Shown here one piece after another: positions 1-11,649 of a stretch of 35,150 nucleotides of DNA; position 1 is the stretch's first letter; each line of letters begins with the position of its first letter. A program made the translations under genes and the position numbers. This DNA is from Rhodospirillaceae bacterium (GTDB taxonomy: Bacteria > Pseudomonadota > Alphaproteobacteria > Rhodospirillales > JABHCV01). The notes under the pieces were generated by a model that searched no databases, was not told the origin of the DNA, and saw only the letters and a program-made list of their open reading frames with translations. Where the stretch lies: NCBI GenBank assembly GCA_014382375.1, contig JACNJU010000099.1, positions 1 to 35,150 of the forward strand, written 5' to 3'.

Positions 1-662
1 TTGCCCACCTGGACGCGCCACCGCCCCTTGGCATCCTGCCGCTGGGCACGGCAAACGTCCTGGCACACGAGTTGGGCTTGCCGAAAACCGCCGCCGCCCT
101 CGCCGAAATTTTGTTTAATGGCAAGACGCGGGTCCTGTATCCGGGAAGCATTCACTGTGAAGGACAGCCTGAACGCCTGTTTGCGCAAATGGCCGGGGTC
201 GGTATGGACGCCCGCATCGTTGAGGGTGTCAGCGGCCCCTTAAAGCGCTTTATAGGCAAGGGAGCATACGCCTATGAGGCCGCCCGTCAGTGGCTTAAAG
301 GAGGCCTTCCAGCCTATCAGATCGACATCGACGGCGTCGCCCAACAGGCCTGCTCCCTGATCATCGCCAACGGCAGACTCTACGGTGGGCGATTCGTTGC
401 AGCACCGGATGCGGACTTAAGCCAGCGCAGCTTCGACATCCTGCTCCTGAAAGGCGGCAGGATCGATATGCTCGCCAATACACTGGCCCTGACCTTCAAC
501 AGATTAAGCCGCAAAAACAGTGTTCGGGTCATAAAGGGCCAAAAAATAACGATTTCCGGCCCTGTCGGTGAGCCGGTTCAGGCCGATGGCGACCTTATGG
601 GCAGGTTGCCTGTCACCATCGAGGCCACGGCAAAACCCCTAATAGTTATCGCCGGACAATAA
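1..662 (+). CDS. Diacylglycerol/lipid kinase family protein (YegS/DgkB/BmrU type), 5' end cut by window
   Basis: This is the 3' part of a lipid kinase that phosphorylates diacylglycerol or a related lipid alcohol with ATP at the inner face of the cytoplasmic membrane. The reading frame is open from the first base (codons start at position 3), so the true start lies outside the window. The second half of the DAGK catalytic domain is visible: LGILPLGTAN near the left edge, which is the conserved substrate/nucleotide loop, and then a beta-rich C-terminal domain with a GGRF motif and a closing GEPVQADGD motif. The GGDGT motif expected upstream is not in the window. About 218 residues are present out of the usual 290 to 320. 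The next gene, 77 bp downstream on the same strand, is an LtaS-like phosphoglycerol transferase, an enzyme class that releases diacylglycerol, so DAG recycling is a reasonable inferred role. Family assignment is firm; the exact substrate is not. Confidence 0.85.
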   Translation, partial: AHLDAPPPLGILPLGTANVLAHELGLPKTAAALAEILFNGKTRVLYPGSIHCEGQPERLFAQMAGVGMDARIVEGVSGPLKRFIGKGAYAYEAARQWLKGGLPAYQIDIDGVAQQACSLIIANGRLYGGRFVAAPDADLSQRSFDILLLKGGRIDMLANTLALTFNRLSRKNSVRVIKGQKITISGPVGEPVQADGDLMGRLPVTIEATAKPLIVIAGQ

Positions 663-669
663 AAGAACT

Positions 670-686
670 TGCCTTTGGCCAAGGCA
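670..686 (+). terminator. Weak hairpin between lipid kinase and LtaS-like gene
   Basis: A six-base-pair stem (TGCCTT/AAGGCA) with a five-base loop starts 8 bases after the lipid kinase stop codon, and a short run of five T follows after several bases. It could be a weak or attenuating terminator. The poor T-tract and the short distance to the next gene make read-through likely. Confidence 0.25.
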
Positions 687-739
687 TCGAAGATTTTTCA
701 GGCACTTAAACTTTCGCTGATGAAGGCAATTCACACCCC

Positions 740-2683
740 ATGCTTCACTTTCTGACACCGCGCTATCGTTTTCCGGCCCTCTCGATCCTGATTTACCTGC
801 TCGCCACCAGCATCGAGAGACTGGCCCTGATCGTCATGGCCTATAAAGACAACAGCGGCCGTCTGGGCGAGCTTCTGCTGGCCCTGCCGGTAGGACTTTT
901 CGCAGACGCGGCGATGGCGTGCCTGCTTGGGTTGCCGTTCTTTTTTGTCCTTCACCACTTGCCGGGATTTATGCAAAAACGCTGGGTCACCAGATTGGCC
1001 TCGTTGATGTTGCTGTTTTTGCTGTGGAACCTTTTTTTCAGCAACGTGGCGGCGGTTATTTTCTGGGAGGAATTCTCGAGCCGCTTCAACGGCATCGCCG
1101 TCAACTATTTGCTGTTCCCAAGGGAAGTGATTGGCAACATTCAGCAATCCTTTAATCTGCCGTTGCTGCTGCCGCCGGTCATCGCCGTGGCGCTGGGCGT
1201 TTACTGGTTTTTGCGAGGCCGCCTGATGGACGCCATCAACGATACGGGCCGGGCCTCACACGGGCGCTTTTACGCGGCCTTTATCCCGATCCTTGTGGTT
1301 TCCGCGCTGAGCGTAAACGCCGCACCGATAAGCGTTGGTGACAATCGGGAAGCAAACGAAATCGCCAACAACGGCTATTTCAGTTTTCTACGCGCCGCCT
1401 GGACAAACGACGCCGAATACGACGGCCTGTATCCCGGCATGGACGAGGCCCGGGCCATCACCCTGACCCGCCAGATGGTGACCCAGGACAACACCCGTTT
1501 CCTGACCCCCGACGGCACCCGCAGCCTGTTGCGCCATGTCGATAACGGTAGTAATCCGAACAAACTCAATGTTGTGCTGGTGATCAATGAATCATTCGGC
1601 GCCACCTATGTCGATAACCTGGACAACACCCGCGGCGAAATCATCACACCAAACCTGACCCGGCTGTCAAAAGACGGCTTGTGGTTCACCAACATGTACG
1701 CAACGGGGGTGCGGACAGTTCGTGGACTTGAGGCGCTGCTGACCTCTTTCTCACCCATTCCCGGTATCTCGACGGCCAGACGGCCCGGTTCGGAAGGCAT
1801 GAATTCAATGCCATATCTGATGAAGGAAAAAGGCTATCAGACAGCGTTTCTGTATGGTGGGCGGGCGGTCTTCGATAACATGGGCCATTACTGGTCAACC
1901 ATCGGCTTTGATACGGTTTGGGACCAGGCAGACATTGCCGACATCGGCTTCGACACCATCTGGGGTGCGGCCGATGAATATATCTACGATGAAGCCCTAA
2001 GGCGCATTGAAACCATGAGCGGCTCAAAAGACCCCTTCTTCCTGAGCATGCTCAGCATTTCCAACCACCGCCCCTATACGTACCCTGAGGGACGAATCGA
2101 TAAGGACCCGGCCGAAAAACGGAAAGAGAATGCCGCCACCTATGCGGACTGGTCGTTCGGTCGCTTTATCGAAATGGCCCGCAAGCGTCCCTGGTTCGAC
2201 AATACGGTTTTTGTCTTCGTCGCCGATCACGGACCACGCCTCAGCGGTCAGGCCCAGGTTCCGGTCGACCGCTACCGGATCCCTTTGTTAATTTACGCCC
2301 CAAAACAAATTCAGCCGCAACAGATCGATACACTGGGATCACAGATCGATTTCCTGCCGACACTGATGGGGTTGCTCGGCATCAGCTTTGACAGCCCGTT
2401 CTTCGGTATTGACATAAGACGCATCCCCGAAGGCCAGGGCCGCGTTATCATGAGCCACAATTACGCCATCGGCTTCGGCCAGAAAGGCCATGTCGTCAGC
2501 ATCGACCCAACCGGTTCTTCGCGTGGCTACACGATGCCGCCGGGGGATGATCAGCTTATTCCGGTCGATACGCCGGACCCGGAAACCAGGGCCAAGGCGA
2601 TCGCCATTACCCAGACCGCCCACCGTATGTTCTATAGCGGGCAGTATCTTTGGAAAAACCGCCATCAGGCTGTTGGCAACTGA
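740..2683 (+). CDS. LtaS-type phosphoglycerol transferase / alkaline phosphatase superfamily (sulfatase fold), membrane bound
   Basis: A 647-residue inner-membrane enzyme built like lipoteichoic acid synthase: five predicted TM helices (about 11-33, 45-72, 86-109, 139-158, 177-195) followed by a large periplasmic sulfatase-fold domain (about 275-600). Catalytic and metal residues can be placed by eye: Glu284 in INESFG, Thr326 in GVRTVRG as the nucleophile, His443 in SNHRPY, and Asp496-His497 in VADHGPR. Their spacing matches Glu255, Thr300, His416 and Asp475-His476 of S. aureus LtaS as I remember them. Threonine rather than formylglycine-forming Cys/Ser argues against a true sulfatase. Enzymes of this group move glycerol phosphate from phosphatidylglycerol to an acceptor and release DAG; in Gram-negatives the best known is OpgB on periplasmic glucans. 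A phosphoethanolamine transferase is a less likely alternative. The 3' end overlaps the convergent acyP gene by 19 bp. The acceptor is unknown. Confidence 0.85.
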   Translation: MLHFLTPRYRFPALSILIYLLATSIERLALIVMAYKDNSGRLGELLLALPVGLFADAAMACLLGLPFFFVLHHLPGFMQKRWVTRLASLMLLFLLWNLFFSNVAAVIFWEEFSSRFNGIAVNYLLFPREVIGNIQQSFNLPLLLPPVIAVALGVYWFLRGRLMDAINDTGRASHGRFYAAFIPILVVSALSVNAAPISVGDNREANEIANNGYFSFLRAAWTNDAEYDGLYPGMDEARAITLTRQMVTQDNTRFLTPDGTRSLLRHVDNGSNPNKLNVVLVINESFGATYVDNLDNTRGEIITPNLTRLSKDGLWFTNMYATGVRTVRGLEALLTSFSPIPGISTARRPGSEGMNSMPYLMKEKGYQTAFLYGGRAVFDNMGHYWSTIGFDTVWDQADIADIGFDTIWGAADEYIYDEALRRIETMSGSKDPFFLSMLSISNHRPYTYPEGRIDKDPAEKRKENAATYADWSFGRFIEMARKRPWFDNTVFVFVADHGPRLSGQAQVPVDRYRIPLLIYAPKQIQPQQIDTLGSQIDFLPTLMGLLGISFDSPFFGIDIRRIPEGQGRVIMSHNYAIGFGQKGHVVSIDPTGSSRGYTMPPGDDQLIPVDTPDPETRAKAIAITQTAHRMFYSGQYLWKNRHQAVGN

Positions 2684-2946
2684 TGAAAACCGTGGTCTGG
2701 TGGCTCGCAGGGTTGATCGAAAAGGTTTGAAACTTCGGCAAGTGGCGGCCCACTGCGGCATTTTTCAAGCATCAATTTTACGTTTTCTGCGGGCCCGCTA
2801 AAAACTGCCTCGACCGCTCCATCACGGCAATTTCTGACCCAACCTGACAGGCCTAGCATGGTTGCCTCGCGAGCCGTCCAGGCACGAAACCAGACACCCT
2901 GAACCTGCCCTTCAATGCGCACCTGACGGGACAGGGTATTCGTCAT
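2665..2946 (-). CDS. acyP: Acylphosphatase
   Basis: A 93-residue acylphosphatase, the usual length, which hydrolyses carboxyl-phosphate bonds in small acyl phosphates in the cytoplasm. The signature GQVQGVWFRAW holds the catalytic Arg21, and GWVRNCRDG holds the catalytic Asn39. Trp replaces the more common Gly before Phe-Arg, a variant I recall in alphaproteobacterial members. The ATG follows directly on the TAA stop of pccA with no base between, so the two genes are almost certainly cotranscribed and perhaps translationally coupled. The last codons overlap the 3' end of the convergent LtaS-like gene. A link to carboxyphosphate, the labile intermediate of biotin carboxylase, is only an inference from this placement. 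Confidence 0.93.
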   Translation of the reverse strand: MTNTLSRQVRIEGQVQGVWFRAWTAREATMLGLSGWVRNCRDGAVEAVFSGPAENVKLMLEKCRSGPPLAEVSNLFDQPCEPPDHGFHQLPTA

Positions 2947-4932
2947 TTATTCATATTCGATAATAGCCTGATCGACGCTCAGGCTATCGCCAGCAGCGGC
3001 GTGAACCGTCTTGATGACCCCGTCGCGTTCGGCGTGAAGGACATTTTCCATCTTCATCGCCTCAATAACCGCCAGTTCCTCACCAGCCTTGACCTCCTGC
3101 CCTTCGGTAACGGAAAGCGAAATCAGCAGGCCAGGCATTGGTGAAAGCAGAAACTGGGAGGTATCGAGAGCCACTTTTTCCGGCATCAGGGCGTACAATG
3201 CTGCGACCTGCGGATTGAGCACAACCACATCGGCGCGCAAACCCGAATGAAACAAACTGTACCCGGCACCGTCGCGTTCCATCTGCAGACAGATAAGCGA
3301 GCCATTAACCTGAGCCTGGAACAGCGGCTGACCCAGTTGCCATTGGGTGCGGATATGCAAACGTTCCTCGCCGATTGAAACATCATACCCACCGGTAACG
3401 CAGGTAATGTTAACGCCATACTCTTTGCCCCCTAAAACCACGACCCAGTCATCGCGAACCTGTCTTTGATGGCCAGCGTACTGGCCACTAATACCAGCCG
3501 CACGCTCCTGATAAGCCCGGTGGATGGCCGTAGCAATGGCAACAAGCAATTCAGGGTCATCGTGGGGAACATCCGATGGATCAAAACCATCGGCGTATTC
3601 CTCGGCAATGAAATTGGTTGTCAGATTCCCTTTCTGAAAGCGCGGATGGGCCATAAGCGCCGCCAGAAAGCTGATGTTATGGGAAACACCGCGAATGAAA
3701 TAACCATCAAGCGCGTGACGCATGTGGGCAATGGCTTCGTCCCGGTCGTTACCGTAAGTGATCAGCTTGGCAATCATCGGATCGTAGTAGATGGAAATCT
3801 CGCCGCCTTCATAAACACCGGTATCGACGCGCACATGATCGCTTTCCTGCGGTGGCTGATAGCGCACAAGTCGCCCCACCGATGGCAAAAATCCACGGAA
3901 CGGATCTTCTGCGTAGATTCGCGTTTCCATGGCCCAACCCGTTAGCGTGACGTCTTCCTGTTTGAGGGGCAGCTTTTCACCGGCGGCAACCCTGATCATC
4001 AATTCAACCAGATCAAGACCGGTGATTTTTTCTGTTACCGGGTGCTCAACCTGCAAGCGGGTGTTCATTTCCAGAAAATAGAAATTACGCTTGCTATCGA
4101 CGATAAACTCAACCGTACCGGCTGACACGTACTTGACCGCCCGGGCCAGATGAACCGCCTGCTTACCCATGGCCTTGCGGGTTTTCTCGTCGATAAAGGG
4201 GCTTGGCGCTTCTTCGATCACCTTCTGGTGGCGGCGCTGGATCGAACATTCACGCTCGCCCAGATAAACCGTATTGCCGTGGCTGTCGGCGATGATCTGA
4301 ATTTCGATGTGACGGGGTTCCTCGATGAACTTTTCAACGAACATCCGATCATCGCCAAAACTGGAGGCGGCCTCGCGCTTGGCAGAAGCGAAGCCTTCAC
4401 GGGTCTCTGCCTCGTTATAGGCGACACGCATTCCCTTGCCACCACCACCGGCTGATGCTTTCAACATCACCGGATAGCCGATCTTCTTTGCGGCACTCAA
4501 AGCCTGACGGACATCCCGCAAGGCCTCCGTATGTCCCGGCACCGTATTAACCCCGGCTTTCTCGGCCAGTTTCTTCGATTCGATTTTGTCACCCATCTTG
4601 GTGATGGCGAGCACGTTTGGACCAATAAAAGCGACGCCCTGCCGTTTAAGCTTGCGGGCAAAGGTCGCGTTTTCAGACAAGAAACCATAACCAGGATGAA
4701 CAGCGTCAGCACCCGTCAGCTTGATCGCTGCCAGTATCTTGTCAATCCGCAGGTAGCTTTCCGAAGATGGCGCAGGGCCAATGCAGACGGCTTCATCAGC
4801 CATCTCCACATGCAGTGCGTCCCCATCGGCTTCAGAATAAACCGCGACCGTCTTGATGCCCATTCTACGCGCCGATTTAATGACGCGGCAGGCAATCTCA
4901 CCACGATTGGCAATGAGGATTTTTTTAAACAT
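2947..4932 (-). CDS. pccA: Propionyl-CoA carboxylase, biotin-containing alpha subunit
   Basis: A 661-residue acyl-CoA carboxylase alpha chain. The biotin carboxylase part covers about residues 1-450: it opens with FKKILIANRGEIACR and carries the ATP-grasp glycine loop GGGGKG at 162-167 and the EMNTRLQVEHPVTE motif. A BT linker domain (about 500-580) and a C-terminal biotinyl domain follow, with EAMKMEN and the biotinylated Lys627. It carboxylates biotin with bicarbonate and ATP; the beta subunit then transfers CO2 to propionyl-CoA, giving methylmalonyl-CoA for entry into the TCA cycle. The gene lies 58 bp downstream of pccB and directly upstream of acyP. The length and BT domain fit PCC better than acetyl-CoA carboxylase AccC (about 450 residues). 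A methylcrotonyl-CoA carboxylase is less likely given the PCC-like partner. Confidence 0.93.
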   Translation of the reverse strand: MFKKILIANRGEIACRVIKSARRMGIKTVAVYSEADGDALHVEMADEAVCIGPAPSSESYLRIDKILAAIKLTGADAVHPGYGFLSENATFARKLKRQGVAFIGPNVLAITKMGDKIESKKLAEKAGVNTVPGHTEALRDVRQALSAAKKIGYPVMLKASAGGGGKGMRVAYNEAETREGFASAKREAASSFGDDRMFVEKFIEEPRHIEIQIIADSHGNTVYLGERECSIQRRHQKVIEEAPSPFIDEKTRKAMGKQAVHLARAVKYVSAGTVEFIVDSKRNFYFLEMNTRLQVEHPVTEKITGLDLVELMIRVAAGEKLPLKQEDVTLTGWAMETRIYAEDPFRGFLPSVGRLVRYQPPQESDHVRVDTGVYEGGEISIYYDPMIAKLITYGNDRDEAIAHMRHALDGYFIRGVSHNISFLAALMAHPRFQKGNLTTNFIAEEYADGFDPSDVPHDDPELLVAIATAIHRAYQERAAGISGQYAGHQRQVRDDWVVVLGGKEYGVNITCVTGGYDVSIGEERLHIRTQWQLGQPLFQAQVNGSLICLQMERDGAGYSLFHSGLRADVVVLNPQVAALYALMPEKVALDTSQFLLSPMPGLLISLSVTEGQEVKAGEELAVIEAMKMENVLHAERDGVIKTVHAAAGDSLSVDQAIIEYE

Positions 4933-4990
4933 TCCTCTTTGATTCCTTCAAAAAATTCATTTCATGGACTGAAGATTTCAACATGACGAT

Positions 4991-6523
4991 TTAAAGCGGG
5001 ATATTGCCGTGTTTCTTCCACGGGTTTTCAAGCTTCTTGCCTGCCAGCATACGCAAGGAACGGCAAATCCTTACCCGGGTGTTGCGGGGCATAATGACAT
5101 CATCAATAAAGCCCCTGTTTCCGGCAATAAACGGATTGGCGAAACGCTTACGGTACTCTTCTGTGCGGTCGGCGATTTTTTTATTATTTCCCAAGTCCTT
5201 TCGGAAAATGATCTCAACAGCGCCTTTCGGCCCCATAACCGCGATTTCGGCACTCGGCCAGGCGAAGTTGACGTCGCCACGCAAGTGTTTTGAGCTCATA
5301 ACATCATAGGCGCCGCCGTAGGCCTTGCGCGTAATGACCGTTACTTTAGGCACCGTCGCTTCAGCATAGGCATAAAGCAATTTGGCCCCGTGCTTGATAA
5401 TGCCACCGAATTCCTGTGACGTACCGGGCAGGAATCCCGGAACATCGACCAGCGTCAATATGGGGATGTTGAAACAATCACAAAAACGCACGAAGCGTGC
5501 CGCTTTTTTCGATGAATCGATATCCAGGCACCCTGCAAGAACCATAGGCTGGTTGGCGACAACGCCAACTGTCGAGCCCTCCATCCTGATAAAACCGGTC
5601 AGGATATTTCCGGCGTATGCGGATTGCAGTTCAAAAAACTCACCCTCATCGGCGACTTTTTCGACCAACTCTCTCATATCGTAAGGTTTGTTGGTATTAT
5701 CCGGGATCAGCGTATCAAGGGACTCCTCGATCCGGGTCGGGCTATCAGGGGTCGGTCGTACGGGCGGTTTTTCGCGGTTGCTGGCAGGCAGAAAATCAAT
5801 AAAGCGGCGAAGCTGCAAAAGCGCTTCGGCATCGTTCTCAAAAGCTTTGTCGGCGACACCGGATTTACTGGTATGGGTCATCGCCCCGCCCAGTTCTTCG
5901 TGGGTAACTTCTTCATGGGTCACGGTTTTGACAACATCAGGCCCGGTAACGAACATGTAGGAGGTGTCCTTGACCATAAAGATGAAGTCAGTCATCGCCG
6001 GTGAATAGACAGCACCGCCGGCGCACGGACCCATGATCATAGAAATTTGCGGCACCACGCCACTTGCCAGAACGTTGCGCTGGAACACCTCGGCGTAACC
6101 GGCAAGGGATGAAACACCTTCCTGAATTCGCGCCCCGCCGGAATCGTTGAGACCAATAACCGGTGCCCCGACTTTCAATGCCTGATCCATGATCTTGCAA
6201 ATTTTTTCAGCATGCGATTCCGAAAGCGAGCCGCCAAAGACCGTAAAATCCTGCGAGAAAACAAAAATCAGTCGGCCATTGACCGTGCCGTGACCGGTGA
6301 CAACGCCATCACCCGGCGGGGTCTGTTTTTCCATGCCAAAATCATTGCACCGGTGTTCGACAAACATGTCCCATTCTTCAAAGGAGTCCGGATCAAGCAA
6401 CAACTCAATTCTTTCACGCGCCGACAGCTTGCCTTTTTTGTGTTGGGATTCAATACGCGCCTTGCCGCCGCCAAGTCTGGCCAGTTGGCGTTTTTCTTCA
6501 AGCTGTCGAATTATGTCATGCAT
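4991..6523 (-). CDS. pccB: Propionyl-CoA carboxylase, beta (carboxyltransferase) subunit
   Basis: A 510-residue carboxyltransferase with the two crotonase-like halves of the family (about 25-280 and 285-510). It opens with a short helix and [17 protein letters not shown], typical of PccB. The oxyanion-hole regions are visible as [12 protein letters not shown] in the N half and [12 protein letters not shown] in the C half, with VDVPGFLPG between. The enzyme accepts CO2 from the biotin of PccA and carboxylates propionyl-CoA; with PccA it forms an alpha6-beta6 complex in the cytoplasm. It is the upstream gene of the pccB-pccA-acyP set and begins 42 bp after the ATP12 gene, so cotranscription with that gene is possible. 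Length and motifs are normal. Confidence 0.95.
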
Positions 6524-8999: not shown

Positions 9000-10973
9000 C
9001 TAGCCATTGGTTGGTGGAAACGAAAGAATAAAGGTGGCGCCACCGCCCGGAGTATCCTCAATTTCGATGATACCATTATGGTTTTTGATGGTGCGCCTGA
9101 CGATTGAAAGCCCCAATCCGGCACCGCCACCACGCCTGTCAGAGCGTTTGAAGCGCTGGAAAATCTTTTCTCTCTGTTCAAGGGCGACCCCCCTTCCCCG
9201 GTCAATAACCTTAATACAGGGGACTTTTTTGTTGCTCACTTTCAAGGAGATCACGGTTCCCCTTGCAGAGTATCGAATAGCATTTTCGACCAGATTGCGC
9301 ACCGCTTGCTCAAGCGACGCAGCATTTCCCCTGATCAGAACAGGAACCTTGCCACCGGTAACTTCAATGGACCGGTGTTCCTTAATCGCCAAGGGCGCGA
9401 TCAGTGTCGCCACATTACGACACACTTCACCCAGATCGACATCATCCAGGTCTTCATCGGTGGTGAATGTTTCTATCCGTGTCATGGCCAGCAACTGAGC
9501 AACCAGGCGGGACATGTTTTCGGCGTCCACCCGAAGCGACTGAACTTCCTTTGAATCGTTTAAATTATCCAAGTGAGTCCGCAGCACGGCCAACGGAGTG
9601 CGGAGCTCATGGGCCACGTCAGCGGCAAAATTACGGTGTCGTTCCTCACTTTCACGCAAGGCATCTTCAACCCGAACCTGTTCGGAAATATCGGTTCCGG
9701 TACCACGGTAACCGCAAAACGCACCATCATCGTCAAAAACAGGAACCCCGTTTACGCTGATTTGACGCCGGTTTCCATCATTGGTGTTAAAAATATAGAT
9801 CAAATCCCTGAAAGGCTGATGCTGGCGTAAAGCTTCCATATGGCGTTCCCATTTTTCAGGGTCCTCGGCGATTTGATCTTTGCCGACGAGTTCCAGGCGG
9901 GTCTTTCCCAGCACCGTCTCTGGCGCAACTCCCAAAATTTCCTTTACCCTGTCAGACAGGTAGGAAAGCCGGTGCTGAACATCGGTCTCCCAAAACCAGT
10001 CGGATGCAGACTCGGCGATATTGCGGAATCGTTCTTCACTATCCCTGAGCGCTATTTCCATGCGTTTGCGATCAGATATATCCAGGATGGTGCCGATCAA
10101 CCCGCCAATACTGCCATCGCTCTTGGTTCGCAGCGCCTTGTGATAAATGACGTCTTGACGCGAGCCATTTGCGGAAGGAACTTTTGATTCGTATGTTTGA
10201 AAGCCGCCCTGGCGGATAAGCGCCTTGTCCATATTTTCCTGGGCGTTTGCCACTTCAGGTGGCATAAAATCGCGTATCGTTTTTCCCAGAATTTGTTCCT
10301 TGGTGGTTCCGCTGAAATTTTCGAAAGCCTTGTTGCAACCCTCATAAATTCCATTTTCGTCTTTGTGGTAAACGGGAATGGGAATGGCGTCGATCAAAGA
10401 TTGCAGAAGGTCAAAACGATCCTTGAGGTCTGATTCGTCGTGTTTGCGTTCGGTAACATCAGTGACGACACCTGTCATTAGTACCGGTTTGCCAGCTTCA
10501 AAAACCACTTCGCTTTTCTCGTTAACGATGCGGACATCACCTGCGGGCGTGCAAATCCTGAAGTAAACATCATAGCTAACATTGTTTCTTAGACTTCGGG
10601 CGACCGTTTCCTCATACTGATGGCGATCTTCGGGATGAATGAACTTCAAAAAATCATGATAAGTGAAATTGATGTCTTCGGGCGTGATACCAAGGATTTC
10701 AAAAAACTCGTCTGACCACTGATGCTTGTCCTTGGCAATGTCCCAACTCCAGCTTGCAATTCCGGTTTGGAGCTGGCTGCCACAATCCAGTATCTGTTGC
10801 CATCGTCGATAAGAAAAGACACCAAAGCACAGGGCCAGCCACAACAAGATATACGGGATTAATTCAGAAGCCGGGAGACGCTCAGGAAGATCAAAAACAA
10901 AAACCAGCAAGAACGCCAGCACGTTTAGTCCAGCAATAATGACCAAATCCTGCCTGCTTTCCCTGTCGCGCAT
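9000..10973 (-). CDS. Membrane-bound sensor histidine kinase with three PAS domains
   Basis: A 657-residue sensor kinase (an in-frame start further upstream would overlap the regulator gene; the ATG at 10973 is chosen because it gives TGA-T-ATG with the regulator stop). Two TM helices (about 10-27 and 39-56) flank a very short external loop of some 11 residues, so the signal is probably sensed in the membrane or by the three cytoplasmic PAS/PAC domains (about 65-175, 185-305, 310-430). Next come the HisKA dimerisation domain with ADVAHELRTPLA, phospho-accepting His455, and a HATPase domain with the N box RNLVENAIRYS and the G boxes DRGRGV and GAGLGLSIV. It autophosphorylates and passes the phosphate to the OmpR-type regulator encoded just upstream. 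Stimulus unknown. Confidence 0.9.
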   Translation of the reverse strand: MRDRESRQDLVIIAGLNVLAFLLVFVFDLPERLPASELIPYILLWLALCFGVFSYRRWQQILDCGSQLQTGIASWSWDIAKDKHQWSDEFFEILGITPEDINFTYHDFLKFIHPEDRHQYEETVARSLRNNVSYDVYFRICTPAGDVRIVNEKSEVVFEAGKPVLMTGVVTDVTERKHDESDLKDRFDLLQSLIDAIPIPVYHKDENGIYEGCNKAFENFSGTTKEQILGKTIRDFMPPEVANAQENMDKALIRQGGFQTYESKVPSANGSRQDVIYHKALRTKSDGSIGGLIGTILDISDRKRMEIALRDSEERFRNIAESASDWFWETDVQHRLSYLSDRVKEILGVAPETVLGKTRLELVGKDQIAEDPEKWERHMEALRQHQPFRDLIYIFNTNDGNRRQISVNGVPVFDDDGAFCGYRGTGTDISEQVRVEDALRESEERHRNFAADVAHELRTPLAVLRTHLDNLNDSKEVQSLRVDAENMSRLVAQLLAMTRIETFTTDEDLDDVDLGEVCRNVATLIAPLAIKEHRSIEVTGGKVPVLIRGNAASLEQAVRNLVENAIRYSARGTVISLKVSNKKVPCIKVIDRGRGVALEQREKIFQRFKRSDRRGGGAGLGLSIVRRTIKNHNGIIEIEDTPGGGATFILSFPPTNG

Positions 10974-10974
10974 A

Positions 10975-11649
10975 TCAATCGTCTTCAGAGAGCAGATAAC
11001 CAACTCCGCGCAGGGTATGCACCGAGATATCGGCATTGGCTTTGGAAAGACGTTTACGCAAGCGCGATATATGGACTTCGACCGAGTTGGAGGTTACTTC
11101 CTCGCCGAAACCATACAGTTTGTCTTCCAAAATATCTTTGGGGACGACCCGCCCGTAACGGCGCATCAGTTGTTCAAGAACACCCATTTCACGCCTTGAG
11201 ACGGAAATCACGTTCTCGTCAACACGCACTTCCCGCGCCGCCGTATCAAAGGACACATTTCCGGCGGTCAGCGCTAATCCCAGCGCCCCACCAGGGCGGC
11301 GAAGAAGGGCCCGGACACGGGCGATCAATTCGGCCATGGCAAACGGTTTCAGAAGATAGTCATCGGCACCGCCATCAAGTCCCTTGACCCTGTCGTCGAC
11401 CCCGTCCCGGGCGGTCAGGATCAATACCGGTGTCGATGATTTTCGGGCCCGCAGTTGTTTTAGAATATCCATGCCGTCGCCATCGGGCAGACCCAGGTCG
11501 AGAACAATGGCATCGTAGGAAACCGTCTCAATAGCCGCTTCGGACTCGCCAACGGTATCGAACCAATCAACGGTGAAGGATTCTTTTTCTAGGCCTTCCT
11601 TCGTCGTTTCGGCCAAACGTTGATTATCTTCGACCAGCAGCAGGCGCAT
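10975..11649 (-). CDS. OmpR/PhoB-family response regulator
   Basis: A 224-residue two-domain transcription factor of the QseB/PmrA/TctD type. The receiver domain (1-115) has the acidic pocket Glu7-Asp8, the phosphorylated Asp51 in VLDLGLPDGDG, Thr in LILTARD and the Lys of LKPF. The winged-helix DNA-binding domain (about 128-222) has SRREMGVLEQLMRR and SNSVEVHISRLRKRL, typical of the recognition helix. It is the first gene of a regulator-kinase operon; its stop is one base before the kinase start. A purine-rich Shine-Dalgarno sequence (GGGGAAGG) lies just ahead of its ATG. It begins 43 bp after rluC, so some transcription from the rluC operon may continue into it. Targets are unknown; the secreted protein gene downstream is a candidate. 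Confidence 0.94.
   Translation of the reverse strand: MRLLLVEDNQRLAETTKEGLEKESFTVDWFDTVGESEAAIETVSYDAIVLDLGLPDGDGMDILKQLRARKSSTPVLILTARDGVDDRVKGLDGGADDYLLKPFAMAELIARVRALLRRPGGALGLALTAGNVSFDTAAREVRVDENVISVSRREMGVLEQLMRRYGRVVPKDILEDKLYGFGEEVTSNSVEVHISRLRKRLSKANADISVHTLRGVGYLLSEDD

Follow-up and report, generated by a model that had tools for sequence, protein, structure and literature searches.

LtaS-like membrane transferases of Alphaproteobacteria and the lipid kinase genes beside them: a probable pairing of head-group transfer with diacylglycerol salvage

The principle that a kinase salvages the diacylglycerol (DAG) left by a head-group transferase is already well known. For instance, in the Gram-positive LtaS/DgkB system dgkB is dispensable only if lipoteichoic acid (LTA) synthesis is blocked (PMC10865820). 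In Escherichia coli, DgkA salvages the DAG produced by the Gram-negative transferase OpgB (MdoB; PMC8027125), and mcr-3 with dgkA is a precedent for DAG salvage beside a transferase (PMC7559476). Here we describe a gene pair at one end of a 35,150-nucleotide stretch of DNA from a Rhodospirillaceae bacterium (the window, which is the entire contig JACNJU010000099.1, or G000:C24 in our numbering, of a draft genome of 3.3 Mb split into 205 contigs), in which a YegS/DgkB-type lipid kinase gene precedes an LtaS-like membrane transferase gene on the same strand. What seems to be new is the repeated attachment of DAG salvage, by kinases of two folds, to an uncharacterised Gram-negative LtaS-like family; we searched the literature and recognised nothing that described this enzyme-kinase pairing. 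The parts of the locus are as follows.

3-662, + strand: YegS/DgkB-type lipid kinase, C-terminal 219 aa (PF00781 positions 79-120 plus PF19279)
663-739, + strand: intergenic gap of 77 bp, containing the 14-bp stretch ATCnAAGATTTTTC
740-2683, + strand: LtaS-like/VP1736-type membrane transferase, 647 aa (PF00884, E 6.4e-49; 3LXQ, E 2.6e-70, Z 54.2)
758-1321, + strand: five long N-terminal helices (residues 7-194) of the AlphaFold2 model, read as transmembrane
1448-2644, + strand: sulfatase-fold domain (residues 237-635, from the model and structural matches), presumed periplasmic
1589-1591, + strand: E284, metal ligand by alignment
1715-1717, + strand: T326, predicted by alignment to be the catalytic nucleophile, in the motif RTVRGLE
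1853-1882, + strand: Y372 to M381, family motif YGGxxxFDNM, with HGxxxxFWNR as the aligned LtaS counterpart
2066-2068, + strand: H443, aligned with LtaS H416
2225-2230, + strand: D496-H497, metal ligands by alignment

We consider it likely that the pair combines a DAG-releasing head-group transferase in the inner membrane with DAG salvage by the neighbouring kinase. The transferase would cleave a phospholipid with its periplasmic domain, where T326, activated by metal on E284, D496 and H497, would take the phospho-head group and pass it to an envelope acceptor, leaving DAG. The YegS/DgkB-type kinase would then phosphorylate the DAG to phosphatidic acid, to be returned to phospholipid synthesis, and in some relatives an integral DgkA beside the enzyme would take that kinase's place.

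Part of the evidence for this coupling comes from gene neighbourhoods. A search with a profile of seven family members (threshold E 1e-40) found the enzyme in 22 of 385 genomes of the class and in 25 of 317 genomes of the order, which together make 46 different genomes. In 10 of these 46 alphaproteobacterial genomes the enzyme gene has a DAG kinase gene as its immediate same-strand neighbour, as compared to an expectation of 0.035 calculated from kinase counts and genome sizes with genomes taken as independent. The linked kinase is of the YegS/DgkB type in six genomes (upstream in G000, G001 and G003; directly downstream in G017, G244 and G445) and the integral DgkA in four (upstream in G005; downstream in G225, G395 and G261). 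A fifth arrangement is found in Geminicoccus flavidas (L034, 708-4266), where transferase, PAP2 and YegS-type kinase form one run with the kinase one gene downstream, an arrangement reminiscent of a Pseudoalteromonas plasmid that carries a PAP2-DgkA run close to a phosphoethanolamine transferase gene. The YegS-type kinases linked in different lineages are 34-55% identical to one another, and the linked DgkA proteins 42-82%. When mapped on a quickly searched enzyme tree of 80 rows, the linkage label requires eight changes, a count that does not distinguish gain from loss; ten loci were set aside as copies, and the tree omits five short fragments (L025, L030, L196, L197 and L198) and 32 Bacteroidota-titled loci, three such loci being kept. 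That the same position is taken by kinases of two unrelated folds points to what they have in common, the substrate DAG, and from the DgkA that stands there in relatives we infer that DAG is what the window's kinase phosphorylates in vivo.

Several observations weigh against this interpretation. The original prediction held that it would suffer if the two genes were rarely neighbours in relatives, and in part they are: an adjacent DAG kinase is present at 11 of 52 evaluable alphaproteobacterial loci, absent from the other 41, and found at none of the 58 evaluable loci outside Alphaproteobacteria (6 of 58 and 1 of 59 loci, respectively, could not be evaluated for neighbours). In the literature we searched, no biochemistry was found for any member of the family. 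The absence of the linkage from many relatives, together with a lipB gene upstream without evident link, would fit a scenario of chance and operon drift, whereby lipB and the two genes of the pair are co-transcribed but functionally unrelated. We regard this as very improbable given the excess of adjacent kinases over expectation, the eight tree changes and the two kinase folds.

Co-occurrence across genomes tells a similar story. Among the 46 enzyme-bearing genomes PF00781 is found in 33, PF01219 (integral DgkA) in 12 and at least one of the two in 42; the four genomes with neither are 65-74% complete. When genomes are restricted to those with a completeness of 90% or more and a contamination of 5% or less, either kinase is present in 33 of 33 with the enzyme versus 22 of 37 comparison genomes (Fisher 1.4e-5). 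The 38 comparison genomes lacking the enzyme were hand-picked and some are small, so that phylogeny and genome size confound the comparison, which is a further point against our interpretation, as is the smaller contrast without filtering (42 of 46 versus 23 of 38, p 0.0013). PF00781 was found in 21 of the 38, counting the broken remnant of G002 and a partial, weak match of G021, and PF01219 in two; with the G002 remnant counted as absent the filtered figure is 22 of 37, and with it counted as present, 23 of 37. Contrasts between close relatives agree with the association in four cases (g1, G002; g18, G020 versus G637 and G641; f18, G022 versus G568 and G571; f1, G004 versus G005) and speak against it in one, genus g29, where G031 lacks the enzyme and keeps a kinase. 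Across the class, DgkA is present in 7 of 22 genomes with the enzyme versus 47 of the 363 without it (p 0.023, on the assumption that both draws of 385 genomes are the same), which lends weak support to an enzyme-kinase link.

The G002 contrast, from the window's own genus, weighs little since it looks like a single deletion: in L202 (7093-8871) lipB stands side by side with the remnants of a kinase gene, a short one, and of an acylphosphatase gene, and neither the transferase nor the two carboxylase-like genes of the window (2947-6523) gave a match in the 16-kb stretch. We considered coordinated loss of kinase and transferase here and rejected it as independent evidence. In G023, G032, G568 and G446 the LtaS-like frame is fragmented or carries an in-frame stop, through either decay or assembly errors. 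At L073 a further DgkA, which we did not count as adjacent, lies about 4.7 kb from the enzyme; the record is titled as a Klebsiella pneumoniae metagenome-assembled genome, its protein branches with Burkholderiales members, its gene has a stop, and the title is probably wrong.

With regard to the kinase itself, the original prediction of a DAG-kinase-family gene 77 bp upstream on the same strand holds. The gene at 3-662 lacks its N-terminus because the window is a whole contig whose edge cuts the gene; the missing 66 residues (PF00781 positions 1-63) are found at the end of contig C141 of the same genome. It has the YegS/DgkB-type domain plan (PF00781 plus a C-terminal domain), and the GGDGT motif, which falls in the segment missing from the window, is present in the complete kinases of congeners (297 and 306 aa). 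The best solved match of the complete G001 kinase is Staphylococcus aureus DgkB (E 1.1e-23, versus 3.4e-13 for YegS and 6.7e-5 for sphingosine kinase), and its TIGR00147 score of 138.3 lies above the cut-off of 118.65, with the G003 kinase (111.2) and the window fragment (71.8) below. Gene order in G001 and G003 (the latter at L031) is lipB, complete kinase, transferase and a convergent gene that is acylphosphatase-like by eye; the lipB assignment rests on NF010921, above its cut-off for the G001 copy. In both G001 and the window's genome the kinase gene has a 4-bp overlap at its start with lipB upstream. Kinase and transferase are separated by 77 bp in the window, by 75 bp in G001 and by 161 bp in G003. 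Scans listed no terminator-like site on the + strand of the window's gap (663-739), and over positions 1-3200 gave six terminator-like sites (4.2 expected by shuffles) and no promoter-like sites (1.8 expected by shuffles). The 14-bp stretch ATCnAAGATTTTTC in the gap is common to the three congeners and is a possible regulatory site.

Alternatively, the kinase might act on another lipid, ceramide or otherwise, in which case its linkage to the enzyme would reflect something else. Caulobacter CpgB, which belongs to the same broad class of kinases, acts as a ceramide kinase; it takes DAG in vitro and was concluded to phosphorylate ceramide in vivo (PMC10331486), which counts against DAG as the substrate. 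This alternative appears rather improbable to us, given kinases of two folds beside the enzyme and the preference for DgkB among solved matches, a comparison in which CpgB itself was not included. DAG salvage gains, in addition, from the content of the window's genome, where we found one clear PF00884 protein (a second, weak match is below cut-off and has a stop), no PF01219, and PF00781 as one gene in two contig pieces. If the transferase releases DAG, the neighbouring kinase is thus the only salvage kinase of these two families in that genome. The recycling proposed in the original prediction is supported by repeated adjacency with two kinase folds, by co-occurrence, and by this presence of one clear transferase of this fold and one such kinase.

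The transferase has the overall architecture of LtaS, as originally predicted. Its AlphaFold2 model, built on an alignment of 48 sequences, has a mean predicted local distance difference test score of 91.8 and shows five long helices (residues 7-37, 39-73, 81-112, 140-166 and 174-194) followed by a mixed alpha/beta domain, with the PF00884 match covering residues 277-548. Among solved proteins the best sequence match is VP1736 of Vibrio parahaemolyticus (3LXQ, E 2.6e-70), ahead of Listeria LtaP (2.8e-26) and LtaS (3.1e-16), and the structural ranking by Z score is headed by the same three: VP1736 54.2, LtaP 38.5, LtaS 36.2, YejM 32.4, best sulfatase 29.3, GacH 26.6 and EptC 25.3. VP1736 shares 32% identity, a structural match over 405 residues and the YGGxxxFDNM motif with the window enzyme, but has Ser in place of the catalytic Thr. 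Its entry is titled only as alkaline-phosphatase superfamily and gives no function, and no paper containing the name VP1736 was found in the literature we searched. The Gram-positive LtaS/LtaP and DgkB systems share the five-helix and sulfatase-fold plan, the catalytic Thr, Glu, Asp-His and His and a DgkB-class kinase; they differ in an identity of about 20% and a separate clade, and the window enzyme scores 71.7 bits on NF053595, as compared to a cut-off of 970. Against the OpgB models it likewise scores 54.5 of 574 bits (NF003000) and 80 of 572 (NF009027), below both cut-offs.

A 38-row tree of soluble domains (26 family rows plus comparison proteins) placed LtaS/LtaP in a clade of their own (support 100/100) and the four E. 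coli phosphoethanolamine transferases (EptA, EptB, EptC and OpgE) in another (100/99). The window transferase, which groups tightly with two copies from its own genus, falls within a ten-member clade of its own family (99/99), and a second clade (93/98) takes in the remaining 16 family rows; the tree does not settle whether both family clades join before VP1736, OpgB and LtaS, and long branches leave its deeper order unsure. With that proviso, neither in this tree nor in the structural ranking does the enzyme side with phosphoethanolamine transferases or sulfatases (the tree holds one sulfatase), groupings that the original prediction had named as contrary to it. By record titles, and among the best 80 of 541 loci, the family extends over Alpha-, Beta- and Gammaproteobacteria, Magnetococcales, Myxococcota and Bacteroidota.

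Residues E284, T326, H443, D496 and H497 show no variation among the 48 aligned members and stand at the positions first assigned to them. Their spacing, 42/117/53, is similar but not identical to the 45/116/59 of S. aureus LtaS, for which E255, T300, W354, R356, D475 and H476 are numbered in PMC7576196. The Thr at position 326 in all 48 members speaks against a formylglycine sulfatase. In type I sulfatases it is an active-site Cys or Ser that is converted to formylglycine. The same residues bear on another possibility, that the protein is a non-transferring regulator like LapC/YejM, which shares the fold and the order of membrane part and domain; the alignment with LapC/PbgA spans most of the model's length, though with a root-mean-square deviation of 16 (Z 31). 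However, LapC has D, Q and GR at the columns where the family has E, H and DH, a substituted active site that the window enzyme does not share, and the latter scores 37.6 bits on NF038282 against a cut-off of 825. We consider a purely regulatory role highly unlikely.

More doubt attaches to the donor of the head group. In LtaS it is H347, W354 and R356 that hold the head group, and at their columns the window protein has Y372, D379 and M381. To this extent the description "full LtaS plan" in the original prediction was too strong, although helices, fold and catalytic residues conform to it. Y, D and M occupy these columns at 78 of 80 loci, two Rickettsia members having F in place of Y and either F or L in place of M, and the acidic D379, at the W354 column, is invariant. 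Judged by alignment, these replacements make a phosphoglycerol transferase a weaker proposition. We nonetheless rejected the LtaS pocket as a test of the donor because OpgB of E. coli, a known phosphoglycerol transferase, has other residues at these columns too, if the distant alignment is trusted.

Alternatively, the donor might be phosphatidylethanolamine, with phosphoethanolamine moved to lipid A or lipopolysaccharide (LPS) by an LtaS-related counterpart of EptA, and the kinase salvaging DAG likewise. The invariant D379 would suit such a donor, as would LpxC, found in 13 of 13 genomes tested, the window's included. Neighbouring genes point the same way, as EptA/MCR gene contexts include dgkA, PAP2 and two-component genes (PMC10285318 and PMC7559476), and the same kit adjoins some family members: DgkA beside four, same-strand PAP2 genes at 4 of 116 loci (L034, L050, L063 and L086; the PAP2 beside L088, on the other strand, was left out) and same-strand two-component genes at 8 of 116, several of them in Ferrovibrio or close kin. 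These PAP2 proteins match the mcr-1-linked PAP2 (E 3e-17 to 2e-31) and also the PAP2 of the Pseudoalteromonas plasmid run (phosphoethanolamine transferase, cation transporter, PAP2, DgkA). This kit, too, renders the phosphoglycerol part of our interpretation weaker. On the other side, the E. coli phosphoethanolamine transferases form a separate clade, EptC has a structural Z of 25.3 versus 36-38 for LtaS/LtaP, and the PAP2 and two-component neighbours are a minority for which a chance rate was not computed. Nor are two-component genes close to the window's pair: the nearest, for a PAS-rich histidine kinase and an OmpR-type response regulator (9000-11649, - strand), lie 6.3 kb from the transferase.

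We see phosphatidylethanolamine as a rather unlikely candidate. Phosphatidylglycerol, with glycerol phosphate moved as the original prediction had it, is the likeliest single donor yet stands evenly poised between right and wrong, favoured by the closer structural match to LtaS/LtaP than to phosphoethanolamine transferases or sulfatases and disfavoured by the lost head-group residues and the EptA/MCR-type kit. What is left of our expectation falls to some other donor.

As for the acceptor, we considered OpgG-type periplasmic glucans and rejected them for this organism, since their marker MdoG was not found in the window's genome (it was found in one of the 13 genomes tested, G014); no search was made for cyclic-glucan synthases. 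Lipid A or another part of LPS would be our guess, though one we hold to be less likely than not. Two LPS or polysaccharide genes, one ManC-like (by eye) and the other of the GT9 heptosyltransferase-like kind (PF01075), lie on the same contig at 16854-19773 on the + strand.

More broadly, we speculate, tentatively, that these proteins may form a second Gram-negative lineage of envelope-decorating transferases, related to LTA synthases rather than EptA, that repeatedly recruited a DAG kinase (of two unrelated folds), PAP2 and two-component control, with lipid A or another LPS part as its acceptor; the EptA/MCR kit would then have arisen anew around an LtaS-like enzyme. The finding bears on the VP1736-type family as a whole, for which there is a solved structure and no function was found: that either of two unrelated DAG kinases can adjoin the same enzyme yields the sharp, testable prediction that the enzyme makes DAG. 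If so, the LtaS-like members in Bacteroidota would be candidate sources of DAG in those organisms.

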